Below, in pieces: positions 1,606 through 51,968 of a stretch of 64,000 nt of DNA. The stretch lies in the NCBI GenBank assembly GCA_002205965.3, contig NADL03000675.1, forward strand, positions 558,001-622,000, in the 5' to 3' direction. The notes beneath the pieces were generated by a model, which worked only from the letters and a program-made list of their open reading frames with translations, did no database searches and was not told the origin of the DNA. The position numbers and the translations under genes are program-made. The DNA is from Kappaphycus alvarezii. Its lineage: Eukaryota > Rhodophyta > Florideophyceae > Gigartinales > Solieriaceae. Positions within the stretch are counted from its first letter, which is position 1. Every line of letters begins with the position of its first letter.

Positions 1606-4600
1606 CTACAATACCATGTAGTCCCTCTCCCTTAAAGAGCCCCACGGGTGCCGGCCACTGCTACTTCCAAACGATACACCGTCAGGTGTGTTTGCTCCAT
1701 GACGCGCCAGATGTGTTGCAGCTTGGCCGATTAGGGATAGTGCCCGTAACACGTCATCGCAACTTCAAAGTTTCTTTCTACACTAAGATCAAGCGAATGC
1801 AGACTTCTGGCAAGGTCATTCCCCATTCCGCATTCAAGCATAACTCGGAGCACACGCAACTTGGTGTGAGGTACCACACATTGCGCAAGCCCCGTTAATA
1901 CATCTGCAGAAATTTCGCTTTTGTCAGCTTCTAGTTTAACTGCCCTCGCCAAGCACTTCACCGCTTCTTCGTGAGCATGTGCTGTTTTGGAACAGAGAGC
2001 AAGGAAAAGATTCCGTGCTGATTTCGCCAATTCTTCCCTATCACCAGAAAGTTGAGATAGTGATGAGCTGCTTCTCTTCCCCGGGATTGTCTCACTGGCA
2101 AGACGTTTTGAATCACGTAGTCTAAGGCGGAGCCTGCGACCAGCTGCGAGGGTGAAGCTGTCTTAATGAAGGCAACCGCTGCAATCTGAGAAAACTCCAC
2201 AAATTCAGACAGAGTATCCATAGCAAACCTTGAAAGGCTAACACTTCCATCTCCTCGCTGCGTGTTGATGATTGAGAGTGGGAGGCGTGACCTGCGCTCC
2301 TGTCTTGGGCTGGTCCTCAGAAATAAGCGCGGATACTGCCGAAATTACCATTTGGACATTCTGTCTCTTCTCAAGAAGCTTCTCCATAGCTGAATGCTTC
2401 TCATTTTGTATTCTGCGAGCTGAAGCTCTCCTCTTCGTTCAGATTCGTTCCACGCACTGCTGTAGTTAGCGCGGATATGTAGCACTGGATGTTTCGAGCA
2501 GCTATGGTGAAGTTGAAGTCATAAGTGTTTTCATGGTGAATGACGGGCGGGCTCGGGATTGTCCCGAGGACATAAGGGAGCGAAATTCCGCAATCATGCC
2601 TCTTCCAGCGTTTCTGGATCTTCAATTAGATGGCGCAAAATTGTTTTCGTAAGGCTCCGTACAACCTTGAAATCCGTTGACCTAGACTGTTTTGCTCGAA
2701 GATGCGGGAGACTAAGAAGCAACGATACGGTACCTGCATCAGCTGCCACGCGTGCGAGGTCCCAGTCAGACGTGAGACTACCAAGTAGCTGCAAAACCGA
2801 TAGCAAGGCATCGCCAACCTCAACCTCCTTCCATAATTTCAGCATAGAGATGCATTGCTTCATCAACACCTTCCTCTCTAGATCAGAGAACTCGCCTACA
2901 TCCTCTTCTTTCCGAGTCCAAGAAGTTATTGAAGTTCTGGCAGAACTGATGATTTCAGCTTTGCATGCGTCCCCAGACGTGCGAGCAGTCTTGAGATCTA
3001 TGTCACCATCTAAAGATTTCAGGTCTACGTCCATGGCAGAGGAAGACGAGCCAAACATCTGACGTAAGAGATCGCTTAGAGCTTTTGCTGTTCTTTCGCT
3101 GTCACTCCGCACGCGGTTCACAGGCTGGGTTGGTTGTTCATGGCTCACTGCGGGGTTTGTTTCCTCAGTTTCCATCCTCTCTGAATGTTTGACCCCCGAT
3201 TCCTTGTTTACTTTGCCGGAATCATCTTCCTTCGCCTTGCGAGATTCGTTTGCCTTCTGTATGATTTTGTCTTTCGCATCGTATCGAGTGAGGGCGTCCA
3301 GATGTAAAATACAAATTGTCATAATTTGAAGCTCTTGTGCTTCCTTCTTTGTAACCGTCCTGAGTTTGCTTGGTGGACAATGTCATCTTCGACTGAGTCT
3401 TCGCAGATTTCCCATGCCTCAGTTGGACAACTGGGACGGCTGTCATCTCGGGCTTCTCTCGCGGATAGACAGTTTCTGGATAGGCTGAGTGGCCTCTATG
3501 TCAACTTCTGGACCACCAAATGCTTTCTCCCATTTACCTGCAATACTTGAAACGCATTCCATGGCGAGTCGGAATGTCCCACATGCTTGCAACGCACGAC
3601 GTGCGTGATTTCCTCCGTAGTGAGCCCACAAAGCTGCGGTGTGTGCTAATACACCTGCATTTTCCTCCGATGCAGCCTCGTGTTTCGAAATGAACAGCTC
3701 TAACCACCCTTCAGTAGTGCCGCAAACTCTGCCGATTCTTCTTTTCGCAATGCACCGTCCTTCTGAATAATGGAGAGCAGTTCGATGGCCAATACGGTAA
3801 GTGCCTTCCATGGATGTGCGAAGATGAACACTGGATCACTTCCCGGATGACTGGTAGGAGTGACTCGAATAATTCCTTTTTGGCATCGGCAAACTCATTG
3901 ACCGTTACTGGTGCTGTGCTCAGGGACTCTTTTGACCTGCGTTTTTCTGAGGCTTGATTCGATGGGGAGTTCATGCCACTGAGCGAGGAAGTTAGGTCGC
4001 AAAGATTGCGAATGCCAATGGACGTAAATGTGGTGGTTTTGTCAACTGCAGAAGTAAGAAGACTGAGCTCAGTAGATAAACAGTTTTCAAGCAAGGCAAC
4101 TCCATCTTCTTCACATTCAATTTCTGTCGAGAGGTACTCGCATGCTGAGAACTTTTCGCTGGCGGCATCGTCTTTTTGACTCTTGGAGCGCCCTCTTCTG
4201 AAACCTCCACAGACCCTGAGATTGCATTAGGTTCGACAGCATCTGAATTACCAGTATCCCCAGGTTGTTCAGGCTCGCTATCCACCATTGCCTCTTCGTG
4301 GCCCGTTGAATGGTGATCAGAATCGGCCGCTGGCTCAATCTCGCCCTCATCGTCTTGATCATCGTCGTCGACATCATTACCCGCAGTGTCTTCGATATCC
4401 TCATCGTTCTGGCCATCATCTCCGGCACCTTCTTCCTCATCTTGCTCGTCACCGTCATCGCCGTCATCCCAACCACGTTGCCAGCTGCCTCATCAGTGCC
4501 CACAGAATCTGAATCGTCATCATCTTCTCGATGACTTAAGAGCCATTCGGCAGCATGCTGTAGTCCCCGTGGGGCAGTTCGTCGTAAGGCGTGGGCCGCT

Positions 4601-7600
4601 CGTCGTTCGGAAAACCCCATGTCAACAAGGCTTCGCATATCTGGGTCTGGTGTTGGTCTCCTCGCCGGAGGGATGTCCTCTTCACGCTCAAGGAAATCTT
4701 CAGATTCATCAAGCATCCCGTTATTCCCATCAGTCGTTCTTTTCTTAGATAGCTCCTGGGTCATCTGAGATGTCGTATGAATTATGCCAAGAACATCCTG
4801 CATCCCCGACCCATCTGGCCTGAATGCGGCAAGTAAATCTGAAGGGGACTTTGTCACTCCAACCAGCAGATTCAGAGTAACAGTTAAAGCACTTCTTTGT
4901 ATTTCCCAAGATTCCCAATCTGTACCGGGAAGTGGTGAGTCTGGCATATGGGATGAGCTTGGATTGAGTAACTTAGGACATGTACCGAAAAGGTACAAGA
5001 AGTTGCAAAGAGTGTTCCATACATCAGAGACAACACGACGGACGGACCCTTCAGCACAATGCTTGATAGTGGATTCTTTGACTTGGTCAACCTGCGCTCT
5101 CAAGGCTCTAGATTTTGACGCTGTTGAGATAATTTCGAGGAACTCCTCTCGTGAAGCTTCCCCATCACTCGAGGAAATCAGTGACTGCGCTCTGCCACTC
5201 TTTCCCTCGCTAACAACAATCCGGGAAATACCGCGAGCCTGGTTGCTGACCGAGTCTGATGAAGTGCCTGTGTCTCCTTCGCTGTCTGTGGTAGGAGGCC
5301 GTCTACTCAGTTTGGAATTATTTTTCGGTACCACTTCGTGCCTTATCCGATCGGCGATATCACCGAGAGCCAAAATGTATGACATCGTTGTGAGCGGCTG
5401 TCCCTTAACAATTTCTTCAGTGCCTGGTGGGATTTGCGCCCACCATCATTATTTACTCCGATCAACTCAATGCTCGACGGATCTTGACTCGATGCCATTC
5501 GGACAATCTCCAGCGGCCTAGTTGCCCGGAGGAGTGCTTCAGCCCCTCCCGCGTCAAGAAATGACTTCAATATTACGGATTGTGTTCCCTTCTGGGGCTC
5601 ATCGAAAAGGGTTCCTTTCATCTCGATAAGAACGCCTCTCAAGTAATCCCAGGCTGCGACAACTTTGCCGCCCCCCATGCTTACTACACGGACATCCCAC
5701 AGTTTTCTCTGTCGTAACAAGATGTAACGCAAATATTCTCCCGATCGTTGCTGCCATAGCGTTCGCACTAGCTGCATACCGTGCGGGGTCCCGAGAAAGG
5801 CGACGGGAAGTGAAAGTCAAAGCCTTGGATAAGTTTGAATACAAACGCTGAGCTGCTACGGCAAACGTAACTAGGCACCACGCTAGTCCTTTGACATCTT
5901 GACGAACAGCCTCTTGATTCTTCGGCGGAACGAAGTAGTGTTTGCAGGCATCTTTGAAAGAATCGTCTGAGGAAACTGGCCATCCCAATAACTTGTCGAT
6001 GTCTCCTAGAGTTTCTAAGACGTGACTGGCGGAAAGGGGTGTCAGTGCAGGATCTGCAGCCGCTGTGACTCGGGCTGTGCTTAAATCTCCATCGCTCGAC
6101 GCACTCAAGGTCAACCGGTGTACACTACCGCAAGATGGTATCGTGCTGCTCTCTCTACCGTAGAAACAACCGCAGCTACAGTGATCCCTTCGCTGATTCC
6201 CAATTGTGAGCAGAGGTTCCTGGACCTCTGCTCGAGAAAAGAATGCTAAGCAGCGAAACGCCGACTCGCAGTTTTTTCAGAGCCACCATCATCTTCGCGC
6301 GCAGATGATCTTTGTCTCCCGTAAAGTACGATGTGTCTACATCTGTGAGATCACAATCAAGAGACTCTTTCACTGCGGATTCTTTCAACATTCGTGGTGT
6401 ATTCGACACTTCCCCATTTGACTCTGATTGGATTCCCTCCATTTTTGACTCTGATCCCTAGCTCTTTGCTCCCTTTCAGCACTTTCCTTGGAGCCTGAAA
6501 GTCCTACTTTCAGGTCCTCTTCCGGTAGCCAGTTGTCTCCAAGTGCCTTCCCAAGTCTTGACACAGTGGATGCATCCCGCAGGATGGCGTGGAACAGGCT
6601 CTTCAGAACCGAGGACGCGTGGCGCGAACTTAGGTTTCGCAGAGAAGCGCCAAGTGAGTTCAGAGTGTGGGCAGGAGTTGGGTAGTGGCGAGCAGGGGGA
6701 TACCCTTCCCGCACGGCAGCCTCAGGAGAAACAAGAGCAGGTGCGTAGCGCAATTGGATCATTTGCTCTAGTCCACCCTTCTCTACAATACCTTGTTGAT
6801 GCTCTGAACTCCCTTGTGGAAACCCAGCGAGACGGCAGCAATTATTCGCTACAGCTAGTTTCATTCTGTCCAGGAGAACTGAGTCCGGCGACGATTTCTC
6901 GGTATCCCCCTTGTTTGAAGCTGATTTGCTCGTGAGTTCCTTCTCTGAAACTGCTCCCTTGCTCTCGTCGGCACTCTTACTAAGACCCCCGACGGATATT
7001 GCTAGATTAATCCGTGGGCGACGGAAACTGTCAGGTTCAGACTCGACAAATTGGGCTGAAAGTCGAAGATATTCTATCATAGCCTGGTTCCCATCAGGAC
7101 GAAGCGCTTCGACGTGTCTCATAAGCTCGTCTAGCGCACTGCCGATAATAACTGGACTCTCGCCGTGAAGAGCACGGGTATAGAATGGAGTTGCCAGTCG
7201 AAGGAGATACTGCTTCAATGGCTGGAGTTGACTATGCTCTCCCTCGCACTCGGGGCAAGGCATAGGGCAGCTAGCAAGTTTGGCACACATCGAACAGCCT
7301 CTCCGCACGGCGGCAGACCGAGGCGGATCGTTCTCAGCACGTCTTCGCGAGGCCAGCTTTGACAAGCTCTGCTGTTGCAGTGGGTTCCGCGTGGGCAATT
7401 TCCGTGTAACAGTGGCTGCGGATTGAAACAGACTACCACCGTGAAGAAATGGTTGCCCCATGATTTTCCGTAAAGCTTTTGGTATTCCGAACTTACACTA
7501 ATTCCCTCACTCGTTTCCTCCATTTCCGAGGGCACGCAGCAAGAGCTGATGAAGAGCTCGGATCAGTGCCCACTTTGAGTGCGGCAGAAGGCCCCGTGCA

Positions 7601-9791
7601 GCCGTACCTGAACTTGGAGGGAAATTTTCCAATGCTTCTGACGGAGACATTTGCCGCCTCCCTAGTCTTTCATACAACTCTCGACTTTCTCCCCTTTTCT
7701 TAAGGGCCGCCTCCTCGACAGATTCATCGCAGCCACTTGTTCTGCTTCAGAGACATCAACCCCGCTAATCTCCACTTCAGCGGCAATTCGCTTCGCCACT
7801 AAACGCAAACCGTCATGATCTCGAAAAAGCTGACAACCCACGTTTTGCGACCCCTCGATGATAGCGTGCATCGCGCGTATGGCCTGAGAAACAACACGTG
7901 AATCGCATATCCCTGTCACTGAGTAACGGTACAAGAATACCAAGGCACCGGAATTTGCCAGTGGACTAGCTCCAGAAGACCCTGCCGACACACCGAGACT
8001 GTGTACAAGTGCAAGAAGCGACTCTGTGGTAAGAATATGCTGGGTGACCTCCGGAACACGCCTGCTTTCGGACAAGCAACGTAAGGTCGTTATCTCCACG
8101 GGGATTCGTCGGCAGATGATGCGCCAGGAGGACCCGAGGTGCGATCTAAAGCCATTGGATCGATTGACCTGTGCCTTCGCCAGAGTTTCTGGGCTCCGTG
8201 ATAGTAGCGACGATATTTCGGTGCGAAGCAGCGTTTGCAGGGCGCCGTGATGTACGTTCACACCAGTCGCATTCATTATCGAGGTAAATTGGTTTCTATC
8301 CGATGACATCGCTGTCAGGCACCGAATGGCAATGATACGCAGGCACCTGGAATATCTTCAACACCATCCTTTTCTCCCGCACATGCTAGTGCAACAATGT
8401 CTTGCAGCAATTCTGGCTCTTTCGCCAACAAATCATGGAGCGGAGCTTGCAAAGATTGCAAATGGAACAGGTTGTGAGCGCATACAGGCGTATCACTGCA
8501 AGTTCAATGCGTGACTCTCTGCCCTCACTGAAACCTTTCGCACGTCGAAAAGCGCAAAGTAATGAGAATAATTTGTTCCTCGGAACGTTATGTGCTTTTG
8601 CAAACTCCGACAGCAACCATTTCTCAGATCCAGGGAAGGGTCCAACGTCTGGAATAATGATCGAGGTGACCGAGCCATTTGAACGGACGATCGGTGCAAG
8701 ATCATGTGAAACTGACCTTGAAGTATTATTCGCGGATAACGGGATTGGGCCTGCTTCAGATGACTTTTGCGTTGCCTGGAATCCTCCCTTCTTGCCCGGA
8801 CCCTCACTTGACGGGAACGAATGTAATTCCCGTCGAGACGATGGTTCGTCAGGAGAGTGACTGTTAGACCCGAGGAAGCAGGCCTCGTGAAGTCGAAGTG
8901 CAACCTGTTGCCGTCAAGTGGAAGGGACTTCACACTCTTCGAGCTGCAACACTCTAAAAGCCCGAGACGATTTTCTCTACCTCCCCATCCGGCTGCTAGA
9001 TCGAGAAGACGGTCCGATAGTTCGAAATTGATCTGGGTACGGGTGGGGCGGAGTTTGTGAGACCTTTGCATCAGCATACTAATGATTTCCAAAGTTAGAA
9101 GAACAATGGCGGAGTTGTCATCCGCCAGAAGAGCACAAGGTGCTCGATTGAATTGTACACTGTTCTGGTGTCGTGAGAGGCATTCCGAATGAGACGCTGA
9201 GTGACGCGCAACACTTGACGGATCAACGAGGTTGTCGGAGTAAAGGATGCGGGTAATCTCTCGAGATCGGATTTCGGCTTATTGCTAGTTTCACCATCGT
9301 TTGTTGAAGAACTACCGCAGCCCTTCCCTGCTTGGCAGAGGCGGAATGTTGCTGGGTGCTGGCCAACTTGGAACGATGATCAGACGATGTTGCAGCCTTC
9401 TGTGCGGAGTTTGGGTTATCTTTGGAGGCTTTGCCAAAATGTTCCAGGTTGAGACGTATCGATCCAGAAGCTCGTCAAACCTATTGAGAACCTTGTACCA
9501 GTTGAGAAGGTTGCGTTCCTCTGGGCGCTCAAAGTTGTGAGGAGAATTAAACTTGTCCAAAACTAGAGATAGAGAGGTTTCATTGTGGGCCTTGAGGATC
9601 TCGTCAATCGTGCTTTGAGCGTGAGAACCTGTTGATGTCCAAAGGGGAAACATAAATAATGTGCGAAGAGTTAGCGCAAGATAGGTCTGGAGACGAAGCT
9701 TGAGGAAAGTGTTCGAACACTTTGGTAATCGTGATCGAAAGCAAAATCAACTTACGGGACTGAATGGTCGTTTGGGCTTGAAGTGCACCAT
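1606..9791 (-). CDS. HUWE1/UPL1/TOM1-type giant E3 ubiquitin ligase, N-terminal and central region without HECT
   Basis: Homologue of the large HECT ubiquitin ligases (animal HUWE1, plant UPL1, yeast TOM1). Exon 1 (9756-9791) encodes only MVHFKPKRPFSP and ends in a gtaagt donor; exon 2 begins about 9628. Recognisable blocks in order: helical N-terminus with NRFDELLDRY (about 9480); LAAGWGGRENRLGLLECC near 8950-9010 (DUF908 type); SALDELMRHVEALRPDG near 7090-7140 (DUF913 type); a UBA domain DMRSLVDMGFSERRAAHALR at about 4540-4640; an acidic Asp/Glu tract 4290-4530; then helical repeats to a stop at 1606. About 2,600 residues are accounted for. Family members reach 3,300-4,400 and end in HECT, which is absent. 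At least eight single-base frameshifts separate otherwise clean segments, so the printed frames do not give one ORF. Confidence 0.85.
9629..9755 (-). other. first intron of the HUWE1-like gene
   Basis: A 127 bp interval with donor GTAAGT directly after codon 12 and a pyrimidine-rich acceptor ending CATCAACAG. The frame that shows family similarity downstream is one base off the phase expected from exon 1, so either the acceptor is slightly different or a base is missing here, as elsewhere in this gene. Confidence 0.6.
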
Positions 9792-13267: not shown

Positions 13268-13555
13268 TATTGCACTGTAATGCAGAGACTCTGATATGAT
13301 TCGAAGACACTTGGCATATAATCATTTATTTCGGCTTTATCAAAATCTCAGCTATGCCATTTCGTCCACGTTTGCAGCTTCCGCGAATGATTGTAGCCCG
13401 CAACATGCAGATGTTTGCCCCCCGTCCAAAGCGGTCATTTCAGTGGCCCTGCTCGTCACACTTCCCTAGTCTATTGTTAAAGCAGTGTTGCGGAGAAAAT
13501 TGTGGGCAGCATTTTAATGCGCTGTGGGTCTAAATTTGGGCGACAAAAATTGTGT

Positions 13556-13657
13556 CTCACTACAGTACTGCCGATGGCATGATAGGAAATCGGCGTTTTT
13601 GGTTTTGTAATCGCAACTTTTTAATGAAAATATTTCATTGTAGTACTGTTTAGTGAG
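13556..13657. mobile_element. MITE-like inverted-repeat element
   Basis: About 102 bp bounded by CTCACTACAGTACT (13556-13569) and the inverted AGTACTGTTTAGTGAG (13642-13657). The terminal repeats are imperfect, differing by two extra A residues. There is no coding content. TCACTACA also occurs 3' of Tc1-like copies 2 (26056) and 3 (about 29652), so this may be a non-autonomous relative. Confidence 0.4.
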
Positions 13658-13760
13658 GGGATTAAATTCGGACTGCCTATATTAACCCAGGTCTGAGGCT
13701 CCAGCCTGCTCACTGGAGGCGACAGAGATCCAGTTCAACCAGCGATTTCTTAGCGTGCGC

Positions 13761-14382
13761 CTACCTCCCACCCGGTATATCGACAAAGGTTTGTCCGCGC
13801 TGCGAGTTCTTCCAACCCCACCGAAGGTCGAAATCTCTATTAGATTTGCCTTTCAGTCCGATTGCAAACGGGGTGTAACATACTGTTTCACCTTGAACCT
13901 TCGACATTACGCCCAGTAACGATAAAGCAAGGTTTCCAGGGACCAGCTCTCGAGTATCAACCCCAGTCAACGACGTCATCTTTCGGGAAAGAAGGGAGTT
14001 CAAGGTTTGTCCGACATATACAGGGACGGGAGTTCCGTATCCCGGGAAGGTCATATCCGCAAGTGCCTGGGATCGAGAATCAAGCCTCACCGAGAGAATC
14101 GTAGCTTGAGGGGAGGACTATCAAACCAGCAGCACCACAGGGTCTTCGAATTGAAGGATATTAACCCGAGAAGTTTCGTCGCGAGTACTAACACCATTAC
14201 CCCCGGAGCAGAAGGTTACTATGCCGGTCAGAGGGAAAACAAAAAGAGAGAAGTTTGGAGGCAGAGGACAGGTACCAAGGATTGGATTCGAGGGGCTTTG
14301 TCCGACCAAAAATAGCCTGATAATACCAAAGCGCGTCTAGTTTCTCTCTGGGATAAACGTTCAATTTATCAAGAACATTCAT
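13761..14382 (-). CDS. unrecognised broken open frames
   Basis: A 109-codon frame (13761-14090) and two short frames upstream on the same strand give protein-like sequence (for example GYGTPVPVYVGQTLNSLLSR) without a family I recognise. They could be pieces of one frameshifted protein or of a retroelement. Support is weak: no homology is recognised and there are stops between the pieces. Confidence 0.2.
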
Positions 14383-34355: not shown

Positions 34356-34363
34356 AAAAATAT

Positions 34364-34373
34364 CCCTAATGTC
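34364..34373 (+). repeat. left terminal inverted repeat
   Basis: CCCTAATGTC, identical to the reverse complement of the right end. It is preceded by ATAT and followed within 8 bp by an imperfect palindrome TATGAT...GTCATA (34381-34402). Confidence 0.85.
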
Positions 34374-34583
34374 AATTTTTTATGATCTTTATATGTGTCA
34401 TAAAATGTAAACGTTGCATAGTTACACAGATTTGACCGTTTGTCAAAACCAAGTTCACAGTGCTGTTGTACACGTTGTACTGTCAGCCCACCAAGTTTGA
34501 GGTCTTCTTGTGGTGTATTTTGACCACAACATCTCTTGAATTGGGGTTCTAGGAGGGGATAAAGAAGGTCAAAAAATGCCCCT

Positions 34584-34601
34584 TGATCAATATATTGATC
34601 A
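34584..34601. repeat. subterminal palindrome, transposon left side
   Basis: TGATCAATATATTGATCA is a perfect 18 bp palindrome about 220 bp inside the left end. A related sequence, TGATCAATATGTAGATCA, lies at 38653-38670 about 70 bp inside the right end and matches at 16 of 18 positions. These are candidate transposase-binding sites. Confidence 0.6.
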
Positions 34602-34652
34602 CCAGGTCCCTTTACTAAGCTCTCAAAGAATAAGTTTACTGCGATTAAACGT

Positions 34653-37600
34653 CTACTTCCTCCGCCTTTGTCTCTTGCGTAGAGTAGGCCCACCTTGCGC
34701 CTCAGTGGCAGAACTACTGGGCCGCTTAGAACGTAGTCTAGAGGCAGGTTCAGGGCGCTCTACTGCGTGCGACGAAGCTCTAGCGTTGGCTCTTGTCTGT
34801 CGTGGACTTGCACCGATCTCCTCTTCCCCTCCGTCATTTTGAACCCCCTCCTCAGACTGATCATTCTACTCTTCAACCCCCTGGCCAGAGTGTCATCCCC
34901 TACAATTTCCTTCATTTCTTGGAGAATCGACCTGTGCAGTCTGTCGCAAAGAAATACGACTGCTGCCACCAGTTAGTGAGCTTTCTTTACTACGTCTCGA
35001 GCTCGTGGGTTGTGAGGAGTTACACGAAGCTTGACCACCTTGTGTGTATGCCAAAGACTCCAGCAACTGCGACGCAAACCGGGGTGAATACGAATACAAA
35101 GAGTAGTTCCACACAAGAACAATAATACGATGAACGATGTCCCCTTCTAGGCGGAGGGTTTGACCACATAGAGCACAGTAAAGGGCCTTTCCCTGCCTTG
35201 GTTCGTGTCCAGTAACCACAAGTCTTAGTGCGCCATCTGCAGCATTGAAAAAGGCCATCCTCTTGCTCTTACGGTTATGAGCAAGACCCACCAACCGCTT
35301 AACCTCCTCTCTTGGCAGATTATGTCCACAAGCTTCCCCCTCACCGACACATACGTTTCCTTGTGTCGCATCCTCTCGCTCTGATACGGTTGCTGCATAA
35401 CTGAGCAGCTCTGTTGCCAAATCAACCGTGAAGGCATTAATGGATTGGACGCTATTTACGTGATTGCGGAAGCTATCCAGAGATCCAAATGAGTCAGCAG
35501 ATTCCAACAGCTCACGTTTCTCATACATTCTCCATCCAATAAACGCATTGATAGAAACCGTTTTGATAGTCTGCGAAACAACCTTCTGCTCCCATTGAAA
35601 GTGGGAGGATGGAGATCTTAGATTAGCTCGCATCTCACTAGCACCATCGACTCCCCCTTTCGTCTTTGAGTAAAAGCTCTGTACCCATGCTTAAATAACT
35701 TGAGAGGTACAAATGGCCCATTCTCCCTTACATGATCGTCAACACCTTTCCAGAACGTCAGCTTAGACTTTAGGACATCCCTTTGCCCTGCTTAACAAAC
35801 CCAGGTATCGTTGCCTCAGATTCATGTGCCCATTGTACTACCACGGAACCAGTTTCCCTTAGAGCAGTCTCGCAAATGCTTAGGACTGTCGGCGGAAAGC
35901 GCACCAGAACTACGTACAAAACACCTGTCTCTGCCGCACAAATGTAAAGTGCCAAACCAAAGCCAAGCACCAGGAGTTGATGCAAAATTTGCCCCATGTG
36001 TTCTTGGGGAACATACTTTCTAAAGGTAGCGTCTCCAACATCGCATCTAATTAGGTCCACATTAGACAGCGTTGCAGATTCCCAAGGGTTGAGGCTGCCA
36101 CTCGAGTCTTAACTTCGACACAGGCCAGTGCTAGACCTTCTTCTTCCTGTTGAATTTCCCCATCCACCTCCAAATTCCAGTCCGGGAATGAACTCTTTTT
36201 GAGGAGAGCTATACCATCGGGTGAGCATGCAAAATAACCGTCCTCCCTCATCGATATCATCCCAACATCACAAACACCTCCCTTACATAACTCATGTTCC
36301 TCAGTGCACATAATACAGTATCCTCTGTTGCACTTCCACGCATCATAGCCTCTGTTGAGACTTTCGAACTGAACCATCCACCATAAAACAGCTCAAACCA
36401 TATTTCCGGCCCCCGCTCAACACGCACATTCTGAGTCAAACCCAGTGCCCTCCTGACTTCTGCATTTGCAAGCAACAAAGTACCAGCATTTGTTCCGGTT
36501 ATCCTAAATTGCCGTAGTACAAACCAATCGGCACAACGCTGTCCAATTGTCAACGGCACACACCTTCTTCGAATACAACTCTGCACAATGTCCTTCAATG
36601 CCTGGCTCTCATCGCTAACAAGTAGGGACTGAAAGAAAAGGGAGCTCCTCAAGTCGACACTCGGCTTAACCACAGCCACCCATGTGTTAAGAGTATCTTG
36701 AATGCTGGCTGGAACTGTATACATGAATCGAAGAACGTTGCAAAACGTTTTAGTTCCCCGCTCACGAACGGCAACCGATGCCATGCGATTCTGTCCCACG
36801 CGTCGGCCGGTAGCCCCAATAAACTTTGTTGCGATAAATGATGCTGGCCCAAGTGCAGGATTGTCGTCTATAACAAACTCATTCCTTCTGTCAAATTGGG
36901 AACCGGGTCATTCGGAGCAGCTTCGCTTACGTCCTGCCGTGAGTCTGAAACAGCTGGAACCAATCCATTTGACTGCTGCGCATGACCACCCCGTTCTTCT
37001 TCTACATAAGACTGCGTTCTAACATCCCTTCCATCTCCTGCCTGACTTGGTTGATTTGCAGCAACCCTCCACCCTCCAAATCCAAACTCTCACTCCCACA
37101 TCCATTATCTTCCTCGTTGCGTTCAGCACCTTCTTCCAACAAGTCCCCTCTAGAAGGATTTAGAAAAACATCGCAACAAACGGGTGAGCATTTAACAAAT
37201 GGTCTGAAACGATGAAGACAGATCCAACGCCGAACTCCGCCAGAAGCTTCATAAACGACTCCTTGCCGTATCCCCTATCGGCGGTGACAATGCAGGTGCT
37301 CAGTGATTGCTCTCCACACCGTCAATAAAAGGGTCAGCAGCTTTCTCACTGAGTAACTTGCGGCTCTCCTCGACGTCTGTAGCGCTGAGCAAAAACTATC
37401 CTGAATAGCGCATCGGCCACCAAATCCGCTGAATGTCCCTCTGTCAGCCTTCCTGTCAGAAATGGTTTTCACTTGATTGTCCCCTGCCCGTGTAACTCGT
37501 CGTCAAGGGTTGCAAGTAGTTGCAGCGGGTTGAAAAAAACCTTCTTAGTCTCTCGAAACGCAAGCGCTTCAAATTCTGACAAATGCCGAGTCCGATCCCG

Positions 37601-38546
37601 CTGTGCAAACCATCTTGTATTCCCATCCTCACCTCTACCAGTGGGCGAATACGCCTTGATATTTCCGGAGATGAAGCGGATCCTCTCCAAAGATGGTGGA
37701 ATGCACCCAATCTGTCCAAGAAGCTGAATAGAACGTTCAAATCCGAGTCGCAGAGCATGTGAAAGAAGCAGAACAGCAACAAACGAATACATGTCAGACA
37801 AGGTTATTTGCGACCGCTCTAGCTTCTTATGTCTGATGTATTCATTAAGCCACTGACACAACTGTCTCAAGAGACCATCCAGAAGCAAAACCACAATTCC
37901 AGCCCTTGTCGGAGAGATACCTCTGACACTACTCTCCAACTCCAAGTTTGGACTGCATTTGAGCAGAACGACCTTGCTCGATCCCCTATGGCCTTGTTGA
38001 TAAACTGCTTTTCGATCTGAATGGAATTGCATGCATCATTTCCCAACAACCACCCTGACTTGGGTCATCTCTCCTGCTTCTAGAGTTTGCAGCTTCTCTT
38101 CTTCTTCCCCTACCTCTTCCTCGGGGATTAACAGCACTTCCTACGCCAGCCGCCCCAACCCAATCGACGCTACACCTCTTCTGCCCTACCTCTGCCCCTG
38201 CCTCTCCACGACCTACAGTAGCAACCCTCCCACCCCGTCCACGTTGCCTTGGCTGTCTTGTTTCGGCTGAGTTCCGGAGAATTTGTTACTTGAGCTCCGG
38301 GGGAGCTTGACGCGTCGCGGGAGCATGCGCAGTATCGTTTTCGTGGCGCTGCTCGCCATGTACGTTTGTTGGAGATGATGTAGGGGGTTGATGTGCGTGT
38401 GTTGGAGGTGGTGTAGGGTCGTTAAGTTGGTCAAGGGCGGGAATGTTTTCGATAGGGACGGTCATGTGGAAGGGTAAGTGTGTGGTGAGACACGGCAGTG
38501 CACATCTCGAGAACGACTGAACGGATTTTAATGATTGAACTTGCAT
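34653..38546 (-). CDS. piggyBac-family transposase with YqaJ-like nuclease domain between catalytic D2 and D3
   Basis: Read in order on the minus strand. First, a disordered Pro-rich then Arg/Gly-rich N-terminus (38546 to about 38030; start uncertain, one in-frame stop). Next, a helical transposase N-domain (SDMYSFVAVLLLSHALRLGF, about 37800). Catalytic block 1 is LLATLDDELHG (about 37487-37516) and block 2 is VTADRGYGKESFMKLL (about 37245-37290). Then comes a nuclease-like domain (about 36560-35850) with RQFRITGTNAGTLL, MRGSATED, SPDG, CVEVKTR and MGQILHQLLVLG, the motif order of YqaJ/lambda-exonuclease PD-(D/E)XK enzymes. Block 3 is KGGVDGASEM (35642-35662), followed by SINAFIGWRM. A Cys motif YCALCG (about 35165) and a basic tail KRQRRK end at 34653. 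About five single-base frameshifts interrupt it. Predicted role: excision and insertion of this element; the nuclease role is unknown. Confidence 0.8.
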
Positions 38547-38652
38547 TGTGTTCCGGACGAGCCCTTCTTTAAAGTTGTGTGACCGGATTCATGATTTGAT
38601 CTTCTGTAAGATAGCCAAATGGGCTCAAGTGCGGCTTACAATTCAGCTCCCC

Positions 38653-38670
38653 TGATCAATATGTAGATCA
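38653..38670. repeat. subterminal palindrome, transposon right side
   Basis: TGATCAATATGTAGATCA, embedded in a longer imperfect palindrome with arms CCTGATC/GATCAGG. Partner of the perfect palindrome on the left side of the element. Confidence 0.6.
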
Positions 38671-38730
38671 GGAGAGGTCTACCGTTCAAAACTGCAAATT
38701 TTGATTCTGATCACAATATCGATCAGTGCG

Positions 38731-38740
38731 GACATTAGGG
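38731..38740 (-). repeat. right terminal inverted repeat
   Basis: GACATTAGGG, followed by ATAT. Just inside it is the imperfect palindrome CTGATC...GATCAG (38707-38726), corresponding in position to the palindrome inside the left end. Confidence 0.85.
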
Positions 38741-38963
38741 ATATATAAACTCTAGTCTTGTGCCAATTATAGGCCTTTAGTACAGGAATTTTGCCCTCAA
38801 CAGTACTTTTCTCCTGTAATTTTTTATTTTCTTTTTCCTGTCGTATTTTTGCAGTGCTTATTCGAAGCGCTGTAGCTTCAGGGTCACTAAGGCCTTCCGC
38901 AGGACTATCATCTAGGGAATTTACAAAGTAATCAGTGAATGTGCTAGAGATAGTCGACGGCAT
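38741..38963 (-). CDS. unrecognised short ORF interrupted by the transposon
   Basis: A frame from ATG 38963 (MPSTISSTFTDYF...) includes a charged helix RISTAKIRQEKENKKLQEKS and reaches the transposon end in frame at RVYI. If the element and one ATAT are removed, the frame continues into the left flank for about eight codons and stops near 34329. No family recognised; it could itself be part of an older repeat. Confidence 0.3.
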
Positions 38964-50007: not shown

Positions 50008-50371
50008 TGTGGATAAAAAGTAGGTGCGTTAATACACGGAAAAGTCTAAAACTTGGAGGTGGTTTTTTGAGTTATAAATGTGCTGATTGATGATGTTCTG
50101 ATCGACCTTTGTCCTAGCTTAGGAGAGGTTCTTATATACTGATTTTCTGGACTAGCTATTGTAACCCTTAAGCCGCTTGAGTCAGGCATGACTCTTCAGA
50201 TGCTTTGATCCGACGGAAGGGTTGGTACAGTAACATACTGTAAAGAGCAGGTCCTGATAGAGGATACTGTAGACGCTTTGGCCTTGTAAATCTACGGTAT
50301 TCTACTGTACTCGAGAGTACTGTAAGAGCCTTGGATGTAAGAGTCAGGAGCATCGGAGTTGCTTCTTCACA
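50008..50371 (-). repeat. 5' LTR of the copia element
   Basis: 364 bp, same termini as the other LTR. It is longer mainly through three 5 bp insertions of TGTAC-type units (near 50233, 50307 and 50322 in plus coordinates). It should carry the element's promoter. Confidence 0.85.
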
Positions 50372-50394
50372 CAATCCCTTTGAGATCTACAGCA

Positions 50395-50460
50395 CTGTAC
50401 AGTATTACGTACAATACAGTATGGTACTGTACTCTTCAGTACTGTACAGTACTGTACCAT
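50395..50460. repeat. TGTAC-unit palindromic repeat upstream of the FAD protein gene
   Basis: A 66 bp tract of alternating GTACTGTAC and GTACAGTAC units, including several perfect palindromes. It ends 12-57 bp before the candidate start codons of the FAD gene and only about 25 bp beyond the copia LTR. Confidence 0.8.
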
Positions 50461-50516
50461 ATAAAAGTGCAATGGCAGCTTGCTATGGTCACGAGTGGCG
50501 CTTGGCAAGCGAAGCA

Positions 50517-51968
50517 ATGCTAGTGATCGTGCAACCTTTAGCTCAATCTCTGGAGGGAACTGCCTTTGTCCCCACAGATCTTGTCGTGTCACATCCAAGT
50601 GCAAAGTTCTCTCGTTGGGACAAAGCAACATGTCGGTCACTTCGAGCACACAGAACCATGACCAGCTGTGTCACTGCTGAACACAGTCCAAGAACGATCA
50701 TCGTCGGAGGGGGCGCAGCTGGTTTCTTTTGTGCTGTCACGCTCTCGCGGCTTTGTCAAGCACCAATTACGATACTAGAGTCAAGCCCTGAGGTCCTACA
50801 AAAGGTACGCATCAGTGGTGGAGGGCGTTGTAATGTCACATCTGGCCTGTTTCATGATGATATCTTGTCGTTTTCAGCACAGTACGCACGTGGTGCTCGG
50901 GAGATGCCTGGTATTTTGTCTCGGTTCGGGGCAAGAGATGTGGTTCAATTCTTCGAAAACGAGGGCGTTCCTTTGAAGACAGAAGAAAACGGCAAAGTAT
51001 TTCCAAAGTCGGATAGTTCGGAATCCATTATTTCCGCTTTGGTAAAGGCAGCAAAGAGGGGCGGTGTGCAGGTTAGGACAGGTGCGAGGGTTACCAACGT
51101 TGAGCCAGTTTCGCAAGGGTTCCGAGTATCTCTAAAAACGGGTGAGCACATATCTTCCTCTTTCGTTGTAATTGCGACAGGTAGTTCTCGAACACCGTAC
51201 GTCTGGGCGAAAAGTATGGGGCATCTAATTACTCCCCCGGTCCCGAGCCTGTTCAGCTTTCGAATCGATGATGACAGGCTTCAAAACTGGCAGGTGTATC
51301 GGTCTCGGATGTATCGATGGAGCTCATTGTTCGTGGTAAAGCTAAAAAGAGAGTGAGCGGCTTGCAACAACGTGGATCTCTGCTAATTACGCATTGGGGG
51401 TTGTCAGGCCCTGTTACACTCTCCCTTTCCGCATTTGGGGCCCGTCTACTCGCGGAGGAGGAATATAATATGAGCTGCATCATCAATTGGGTGCCGCAAT
51501 TGTCATTAAATGCAAAAATCGAAATGCTAAACGAAACAAAGAGGTTACTTGGCCACAAGAATATGTCAGTGGTTTCCCCTTTTCGAAAATTTCTCCCTAA
51601 TCGCCTATGGAGATACATTCTCGAGAAAGTTGAAATTGATTCACAGAATTGGGCCTCGGTGCGGAAGGATAGCTTGGAGGTACTCGCAAATCACATTCAT
51701 GCCTTTACTTGTCAGATTGCAGGCAAAGGTGAGTTCAAAGATGAATTTGTCACAGGGGTGGGGTTGCATTAAACCAAATTGATATCAAGACATTTGAAAG
51801 CAAAAAGTACCAGGTCTGTACTTTGCTGGGGAAATACTTGATGTCGACGGCAGAACTGGTGGCTTTAATCTTGAGTTTGCATGGTCGAGCGGATATATTG
51901 CTGCCTTGTCGATTGCGGAAAACGTGCTGGTACTCTATGAAAATACTGATCGGATGAACGCTAGATGA
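50517..51968 (+). CDS. HI0933/YhiN-like FAD-dependent oxidoreductase
   Basis: Flavoprotein of the HI0933/YhiN (BaiN-like) family; physiological substrate unknown. The Rossmann FAD motif [15 protein letters not shown] lies at about 50693-50737. [13 protein letters not shown] follows at about 50808-50846, the family signature. [14 protein letters not shown] is near 51166, and the C-terminal [17 protein letters not shown] at about 51815-51865 closes the FAD site. Three single-base losses break the frame, near 51290, 51735 and 51815; restoring the frame at each site recovers family sequence. Starts at 50472, 50517 or 50658 are possible. The longer forms add a 47-62 residue Ser/basic-containing leader before the fold that could be an organelle-targeting peptide (inference). 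No intron seen. Confidence 0.85.

Follow-up and report, generated by a model that had tools for sequence, protein, structure and literature searches.

Lambda exonuclease is a stand-alone trimeric enzyme, and piggyBac is a cut-and-paste transposase whose donor overhangs have 5' polarity. The piggyBac transposase of Trichoplusia ni (PDB 6x67; PMC7351741) contains no nuclease domain, places its second and third catalytic aspartates (D2 and D3) 101 residues apart, and targets TTAA. As far as the account in PMC7351741 goes, its RNase H fold is split after the fifth strand by a three-stranded insertion domain (residues 372–433); on excision, the transposon ends form hairpins, and complementary 4-nt overhangs left on the donor flanks are rejoined seamlessly. 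By contrast, the transposon family described here, of which one copy lies in a 64,000-nt stretch of the Kappaphycus alvarezii genome (contig NADL03000675.1, positions 558,001–622,000; hereafter the window), encodes a transposase with a nested YqaJ/lambda-exonuclease domain and 479–557 residues between D2 and D3, and its target is ATAT. We consider it probable that the window copy is the remains of a cut-and-paste transposon related to piggyBac, now dead, in which the YqaJ domain lies within the RNase H fold and would attack the donor break with 5'-3' exonuclease activity.

A nuclease nested in a DDD transposase

A sequence-only reading of the window had proposed that a piggyBac DDE transposase harbors a YqaJ nuclease in the interval from D2 to D3, with about 540 codons separating the two aspartates. 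The motif blocks that it quoted all lie on the minus strand in the order given, though in different frames, and the gap is of the length claimed; the element as a whole is larger than the span reported (Table 1). Because the conserved blocks are distributed over three minus-strand frames, the window copy is decayed; all four catalytic residues of the nuclease (E, D, E, and K) are retained in it. Alignments with relatives show that the pattern is not accidental (E-values here are for the window alone). The related protein P0003 aligns across the nuclease in three frames (combined E 4e-67), and P0005, in which D1, D2 and the beginning of the nuclease share a single open frame, matches the window over D1–D2 (E 7e-18) and over the insertion strands and nuclease start (E 1e-31). 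The window pieces themselves gave no significant match to Pfam (best E 0.025 and 0.054), so that the YqaJ profile expected in the intervening region was found in relatives (PF09588) and not in the window alone, and the profile evidence below is drawn from relatives.

Table 1. Parts of the element in the window and a related unfilled site (positions in the 64,000-nt window).
Feature	Position	Strand	Basis or remark
Whole element, 4,385 bp, ATAT to ATAT	34360..38744	-	~96% homology to L017, L018, L019 stopping sharply at both points
5' terminal inverted repeat including ATAT, ATATCCCTAATGTC	38731..38744	-	copy comparison
3' terminal inverted repeat including ATAT	34360..34373	+	copy comparison; complement of ATATCCCTAATGTC
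N-terminal helices (resembling the piggyBac DDBD) plus the first RNase H strand, which carries D1	37472..38035	-	
Catalytic D1 block LATLDDELHG	37487-37516	-	
Catalytic D2 block region	37166..37309	-	TADRGYG at 37265-37285
piggyBac-type insertion-domain strands, 5' of nuclease	36626..36895	-	tblastn with corresponding part of alignment A2, E 2e-46
YqaJ/lambda-exonuclease domain, three frames	35797..36577	-	
Nuclease motif GQRCADWFVLRQFRITGTNAG	from ~36544	-	
Nuclease motif GSATE	~36323-36337	-	
Nuclease motif SPDG	36213-36224	-	
Nuclease motif EVKT	36105-36116	-	
Nuclease motif HMGQILHQ	35977-36000	-	
D3 block and C-terminal DDBD part	35142..35690	-	KGGVDGASEM at 35631-35660
C-terminal Cys-rich domain remnant, two frames	35039..35258	-	
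Unfilled paralogue of L018 insertion site, single ATAT	13484..13979	-	80% identity over 503 columns, no junction gap

Searching with the nuclease half (216 aa) recovered 11 proteins, including P0003, P0004, and P0005. In the genome itself (336 Mb, 884 contigs), a query from the D3 part matched at least 150 places, the window included (150 scored of 924 candidates, all matching). Twenty-four loci (L013–L036) were read, 4 of them chosen through a PF09588 match and 20 taken from the D3 list because their identity was high or their open frame long; low-identity D3 matches lie outside this sample, and nuclease-less variants could be among them. All 24 loci and the window show the same order on one strand: D1–D2, insertion strands, both nuclease halves, D3, and Cys-rich domain. 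The longest single frame read in the genome, L034 (958 aa), runs from within the N-terminal helices through the Cys-rich domain, and the open frame of L021 covers 867 aa, starting at the N-terminus and reaching the nuclease end.

Using the L034 protein as query yielded 22 relatives of 608–1301 aa (alignment A2), which in turn yielded 46 relatives. With part-specific profiles from A2, the nuclease was placed between the upstream part and D3 in 29 of the 30 spanning proteins among P0012–P0059 (19 of these 29 being A2 members). Single open frames of relatives hold the whole order, so the first two aspartate blocks and the KGGVD block belong to one gene, as the nested arrangement requires. The relatives labeled with an organism among the 46 come from Gracilariopsis chorda (P0028, P0036, P0051, and P0057) and Chondrus crispus (P0041), two members of the Florideophyceae; on this ground alone a red-algal host would be probable. 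It had been suggested that relatives might be filed under piggyBac names, which is true of P0036 from G. chorda ("PiggyBac transposable element-d..."), while P0028 and P0024 bear YqaJ names. No nuclease-less sister lineage turned up among the relatives, in searches not designed for remote sisters; nor did the window nuclease half and P0048 match phage records, or P0039 and P0024 find a relative in viral contigs.

At the profile level, 20 of the 22 A2 members match PF09588 at E ≤0.1 (best 8.8e-7), and P0043 (32.7 bits), P0035 (26.5), P0024 (25.8), and P0004 (23.1) exceed its 22-bit cut-off, with P0003 at 20.0 bits. The transposase profile PF13843 (DDE_Tnp_1_7) is reached by 3 of 22 at E ≤0.1 (best 7.5e-5); P0039 exceeds the cut-off at 29.1 bits, in a match confined to the D3 end. 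Other comparisons were weak: the N-terminal part alone scored 7.6 bits against a 6x67 profile, the YqaJ alignment met lambda exonuclease alone only in its closing motif (profile comparison, E 0.0011, probability 20), the DDE parts compared with the DDE_Tnp_1_7 copies of the genome gave E 0.38 and 0.029, and L021 alone had no match among PDB sequences. The C-terminal Cys-rich domain has six Cys and one His conserved in all 18 A2 members reaching them, and resembles zf-Tnp_2 weakly (4 of 22, best E 0.0059). P0037 and P0038 match a SCAND3-like zinc finger after this domain, at 4.7e-6 (just under the cut-off) and 0.006, respectively.

An AlphaFold model of P0014 aligns with both the piggyBac and the lambda exonuclease folds and, together with the single open frames, bears out the nested arrangement; the RNase H-like DDD core has the piggyBac arrangement, with DDBD and insertion domain. 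Three strands (369–377, 385–393, and 403–409) lie after D2 and ahead of the nuclease, and therefore the insertion domain appears to be retained, with the nuclease added behind it; their correspondence with the piggyBac strands is read from order and topology rather than from residue-level superposition. This supports a position of the nuclease behind the insertion-domain strands and ahead of D3. Thus, of the two options originally raised, that the insertion domain had been replaced or extended, extension agrees with the model and replacement does not.

Conservation of both catalytic sites

In a joint alignment, E85, D119, E129, and K131 of lambda exonuclease, which we take to be its catalytic residues, correspond to E534, D569, E603, and K605 of P0014, and the PD-(D/E)XK catalytic set is thus present. 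These four residues are retained in 22, 21, 20, and 20 of the 22 distant relatives, respectively, alongside D1 (22/22), D2 (22/22), and D3 (19/19 with sequence there). Of the 25 copies in this genome (24 loci and the window), 24, 23, 24, and 24 keep the respective nuclease residues, and 21, 21, and 22 keep D1, D2, and D3. D1–D2 spacing is 78 in 19 of 19 if D1 is D197 of P0014, and 79 or 77 if it is D196 or D198; because of this ambiguity, exact equality with the piggyBac spacing is not used as evidence.

Element ends and target site

The element termini read CCCTA...TAGGG and are preceded by ATAT. All 30 ends with the exact inner terminal motif (2 in the window and 28 from 17 of the 24 loci; the remaining 7 loci have no exact end) follow ATAT, and the bases outside it vary. 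The target is therefore ATAT; as none of these 30 ends carries TTAA as target or duplication, we class the element as piggyBac-related rather than as canonical piggyBac. Genome-wide, ATATCCCTAMTGYC occurs 265 times, compared with 8 for a reversed-pattern control, while BTATCCCTAMTGYC, in which the first position is C, G, or T, has 30 occurrences, compared with 22 for its control.

Unfilled sites agree with these ends. When the flanks of L018 are closed up over a single ATAT, they align with an unfilled repeat in the window (80%; Table 1), which reads TTAATATAG, so that a TTAA overlaps the ATAT there; this is by chance, and the overlap does not recur among the eight other unfilled copies read. 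The joined L017 flanks match at least 43 genome stretches (40 of 1149 candidates scored), of which 42 cross the junction and one is the filled copy's own flank. The eight unfilled copies of the L017 site that were read have a single ATAT (seven) or ACAT (one) at the junction, and no gap within the 23 surrounding bases.

The simplest reading of these junctions is a 4-bp duplication of ATAT. A TA duplication, with an element TCCC...GGGA within an A-TA-T target, would predict the same sequences, and ATAT duplication is preferred since the outer A is nearly invariant. Duplication of AT around an element ATCCC...GGGAT was rejected, as it would give an empty site two bases shorter than that observed.

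Two further observations concern target choice. L017 and L031, different family members, share one insertion point in one repeat. Most of the unfilled copies of that repeat read CCTCATATGAGG, which is a palindrome of 12 bp, a possible sign that the target extends beyond ATAT. In addition, eight near-identical DDE_Tnp_1_7 elements of this genome (L001–L008) have ends TATCCCC...GGGGATA (with a single deviating end in L003 and another in L008) and no TTAA at their borders, which look like a TA duplication around an element starting TCCCC, and they may represent a second piggyBac-type group that departed from the TTAA target.

Possible role of the nested nuclease

The pairing of nuclease and transposase suggests that the element processes its own DNA breaks when moving. 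By analogy with piggyBac, the DDD site would excise and insert the element by cut-and-paste, cutting and joining its ends. The hairpin-closed transposon ends would be spared by a tethered 5'-3' exonuclease, which would encounter the exposed donor ends first and resect them. Donor repair might thereby be shifted from seamless rejoining to recombination with a sister copy, which would restore the element at the donor site and increase the number of copies. In this extended form, a red-algal piggyBac-related lineage whose single protein transposes and resects its own donor break, with recombinogenic, copy-gaining excision and a target shifted from TTAA to ATAT, is put forward only tentatively. 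The family is abundant in this genome (the D3 matches above), but so are DDE_Tnp_1_7 elements (119 matches); high copy number is therefore compatible with copy gain and not proof of it.

Several observations weigh against the favored explanation of a transposase with an active donor-resecting nuclease. The lambda exonuclease trimer may be hard to reconcile with a piggyBac dimer. The longest frame, L034, is substituted at D2 and at the nuclease Asp; P0055 lacks the whole nuclease, its D1–D2 part being joined straight to D3 in what looks like an internal deletion, and P0036 lacks the SPDG stretch. PF09588 is reached at only 4 places of the genome, and the DDE parts show no D1–D2 match to its DDE_Tnp_1_7 copies (the eight near-identical ones). 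Among the 50 Foldseek matches listed for the model, lambda exonuclease and Tn5 are present and piggyBac is absent, emerging only on re-alignment of the Foldseek candidates, and the D3 loop (model 757–761) has a predicted local distance difference test score (pLDDT) below 50. Mean pairwise identity across A2 is 41–44% in the nuclease, against 58% in D1–D2 and 59% in D3, which indicates more rapid evolution of the nuclease than of the transposase core, even though the nuclease catalytic set is kept. Finally, the ratio of nonsynonymous to synonymous substitution rates between close copies is 0.77 from the N-terminus to D2, 0.92 in the insertion strands, 0.79 in the nuclease, and 0.80 in D3 and the Cys-rich domain, as pooled over 10 pairs with one copy used twice and with rough codon mapping near frameshifts. 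Such near-neutral values in all parts are as expected for copies decaying after insertion and are uninformative on function, so that selection on the nuclease is read solely from conservation among distant relatives.

Other explanations differ in how far these data accommodate them. Since the window copy is split over several frames into pieces lacking a significant Pfam match, two unrelated genes or a nested insertion might have been merged through misread degenerate sequence; uninterrupted frames spanning the whole order in this genome and elsewhere, with all 24 loci and the window concordant, refute this artefact, to which we give practically no credence. It is also very improbable that the element is of the ISL2EU or Kolobok type and only resembles piggyBac, as might be entertained from the separate YqaJ gene described for ISL2EU (PMC4482050) and the downstream lambda-exonuclease-like nuclease described for KolobokE (PMC9587614).

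The remaining alternatives concern what the nuclease does. Instead of resecting the donor, it may trim flaps or hairpin remnants on the transposon or joined product once hairpins have been opened and strands transferred; a 4-nt flap is described for the piggyBac strand-transfer complex in PMC7351741, yet canonical piggyBac copes without a nuclease domain and nothing here supports trimming directly, which makes this role unlikely. Less likely still, the nuclease fold might have been kept to extend the insertion domain for DNA binding or target bending, with its catalysis dispensable for transposition. The nuclease adjoins that domain, which lines the target channel of piggyBac in the account of PMC7351741, and the family target is ATAT rather than TTAA; however, all four catalytic residues are kept in 20–22 of 22 distant relatives and in 23–24 of 25 copies including the window. 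Exonucleolytic action on the donor break remains our preferred role.

Other open reading frames in the window

Open reading frames on the minus strand at 4120–9278 match UBA, DUF913 and, weakly, DUF908, as in HUWE1/UPL-type ubiquitin ligases. Another on the plus strand at 50244–51353 has a strong match to HI0933-like flavoproteins (3.6e-40).

Comparison with known transposon-associated nucleases

In searches of the open literature of PubMed Central, no piggyBac-type enzyme with a nested YqaJ domain came to light, although subscription journals or Repbase may hold an earlier description. Unlike lambda exonuclease and YqaJ proteins (PF09588; PDB 1avq), the domain described here is nested in the fold of another enzyme and has longer loops. 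Among DDE transposons, ISL2EU likewise encodes a YqaJ exonuclease, but, as it is presented in PMC4482050, on a separate open reading frame, together with a PHIS-type transposase bearing a THAP domain and with AT duplication; in the family described here, transposase and nuclease share one open frame. KolobokE, a DDD/E transposon with a lambda-exonuclease-like PD-D/ExK nuclease, belongs to the Kolobok superfamily and has the nuclease downstream of the transposase domain, according to the description in PMC9587614. The closest parallel in arrangement is Dada, from Laccaria bicolor and Ectocarpus siliculosus, in which an exonuclease is nested in the DDE region after the second catalytic D; as outlined in PMC3706591, it has a DEDDy 3'-5' exonuclease fold, belongs to another superfamily and targets small-RNA genes, whereas the nested domain here has the lambda-exonuclease fold. 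Within the scope of these accounts, a nuclease within a DDE transposon is already known, as is nesting in the case of Dada.

Taken together with ISL2EU, KolobokE, and Dada, the present family suggests repeated acquisition of exonucleases by DDE transposons, the position behind the second catalytic D being common to Dada and this family. Here the catalytic fold of a widely used transposase type accommodates a second nuclease that looks active, and both active sites are preserved over deep divergence. The family also explains red-algal proteins labeled only as "YqaJ viral recombinase" or "PiggyBac-derived." The reason for an exonuclease in a cut-and-paste element thereby becomes directly testable, and the ATAT target lends itself to comparison in the question of tetranucleotide choice by piggyBac-type enzymes.
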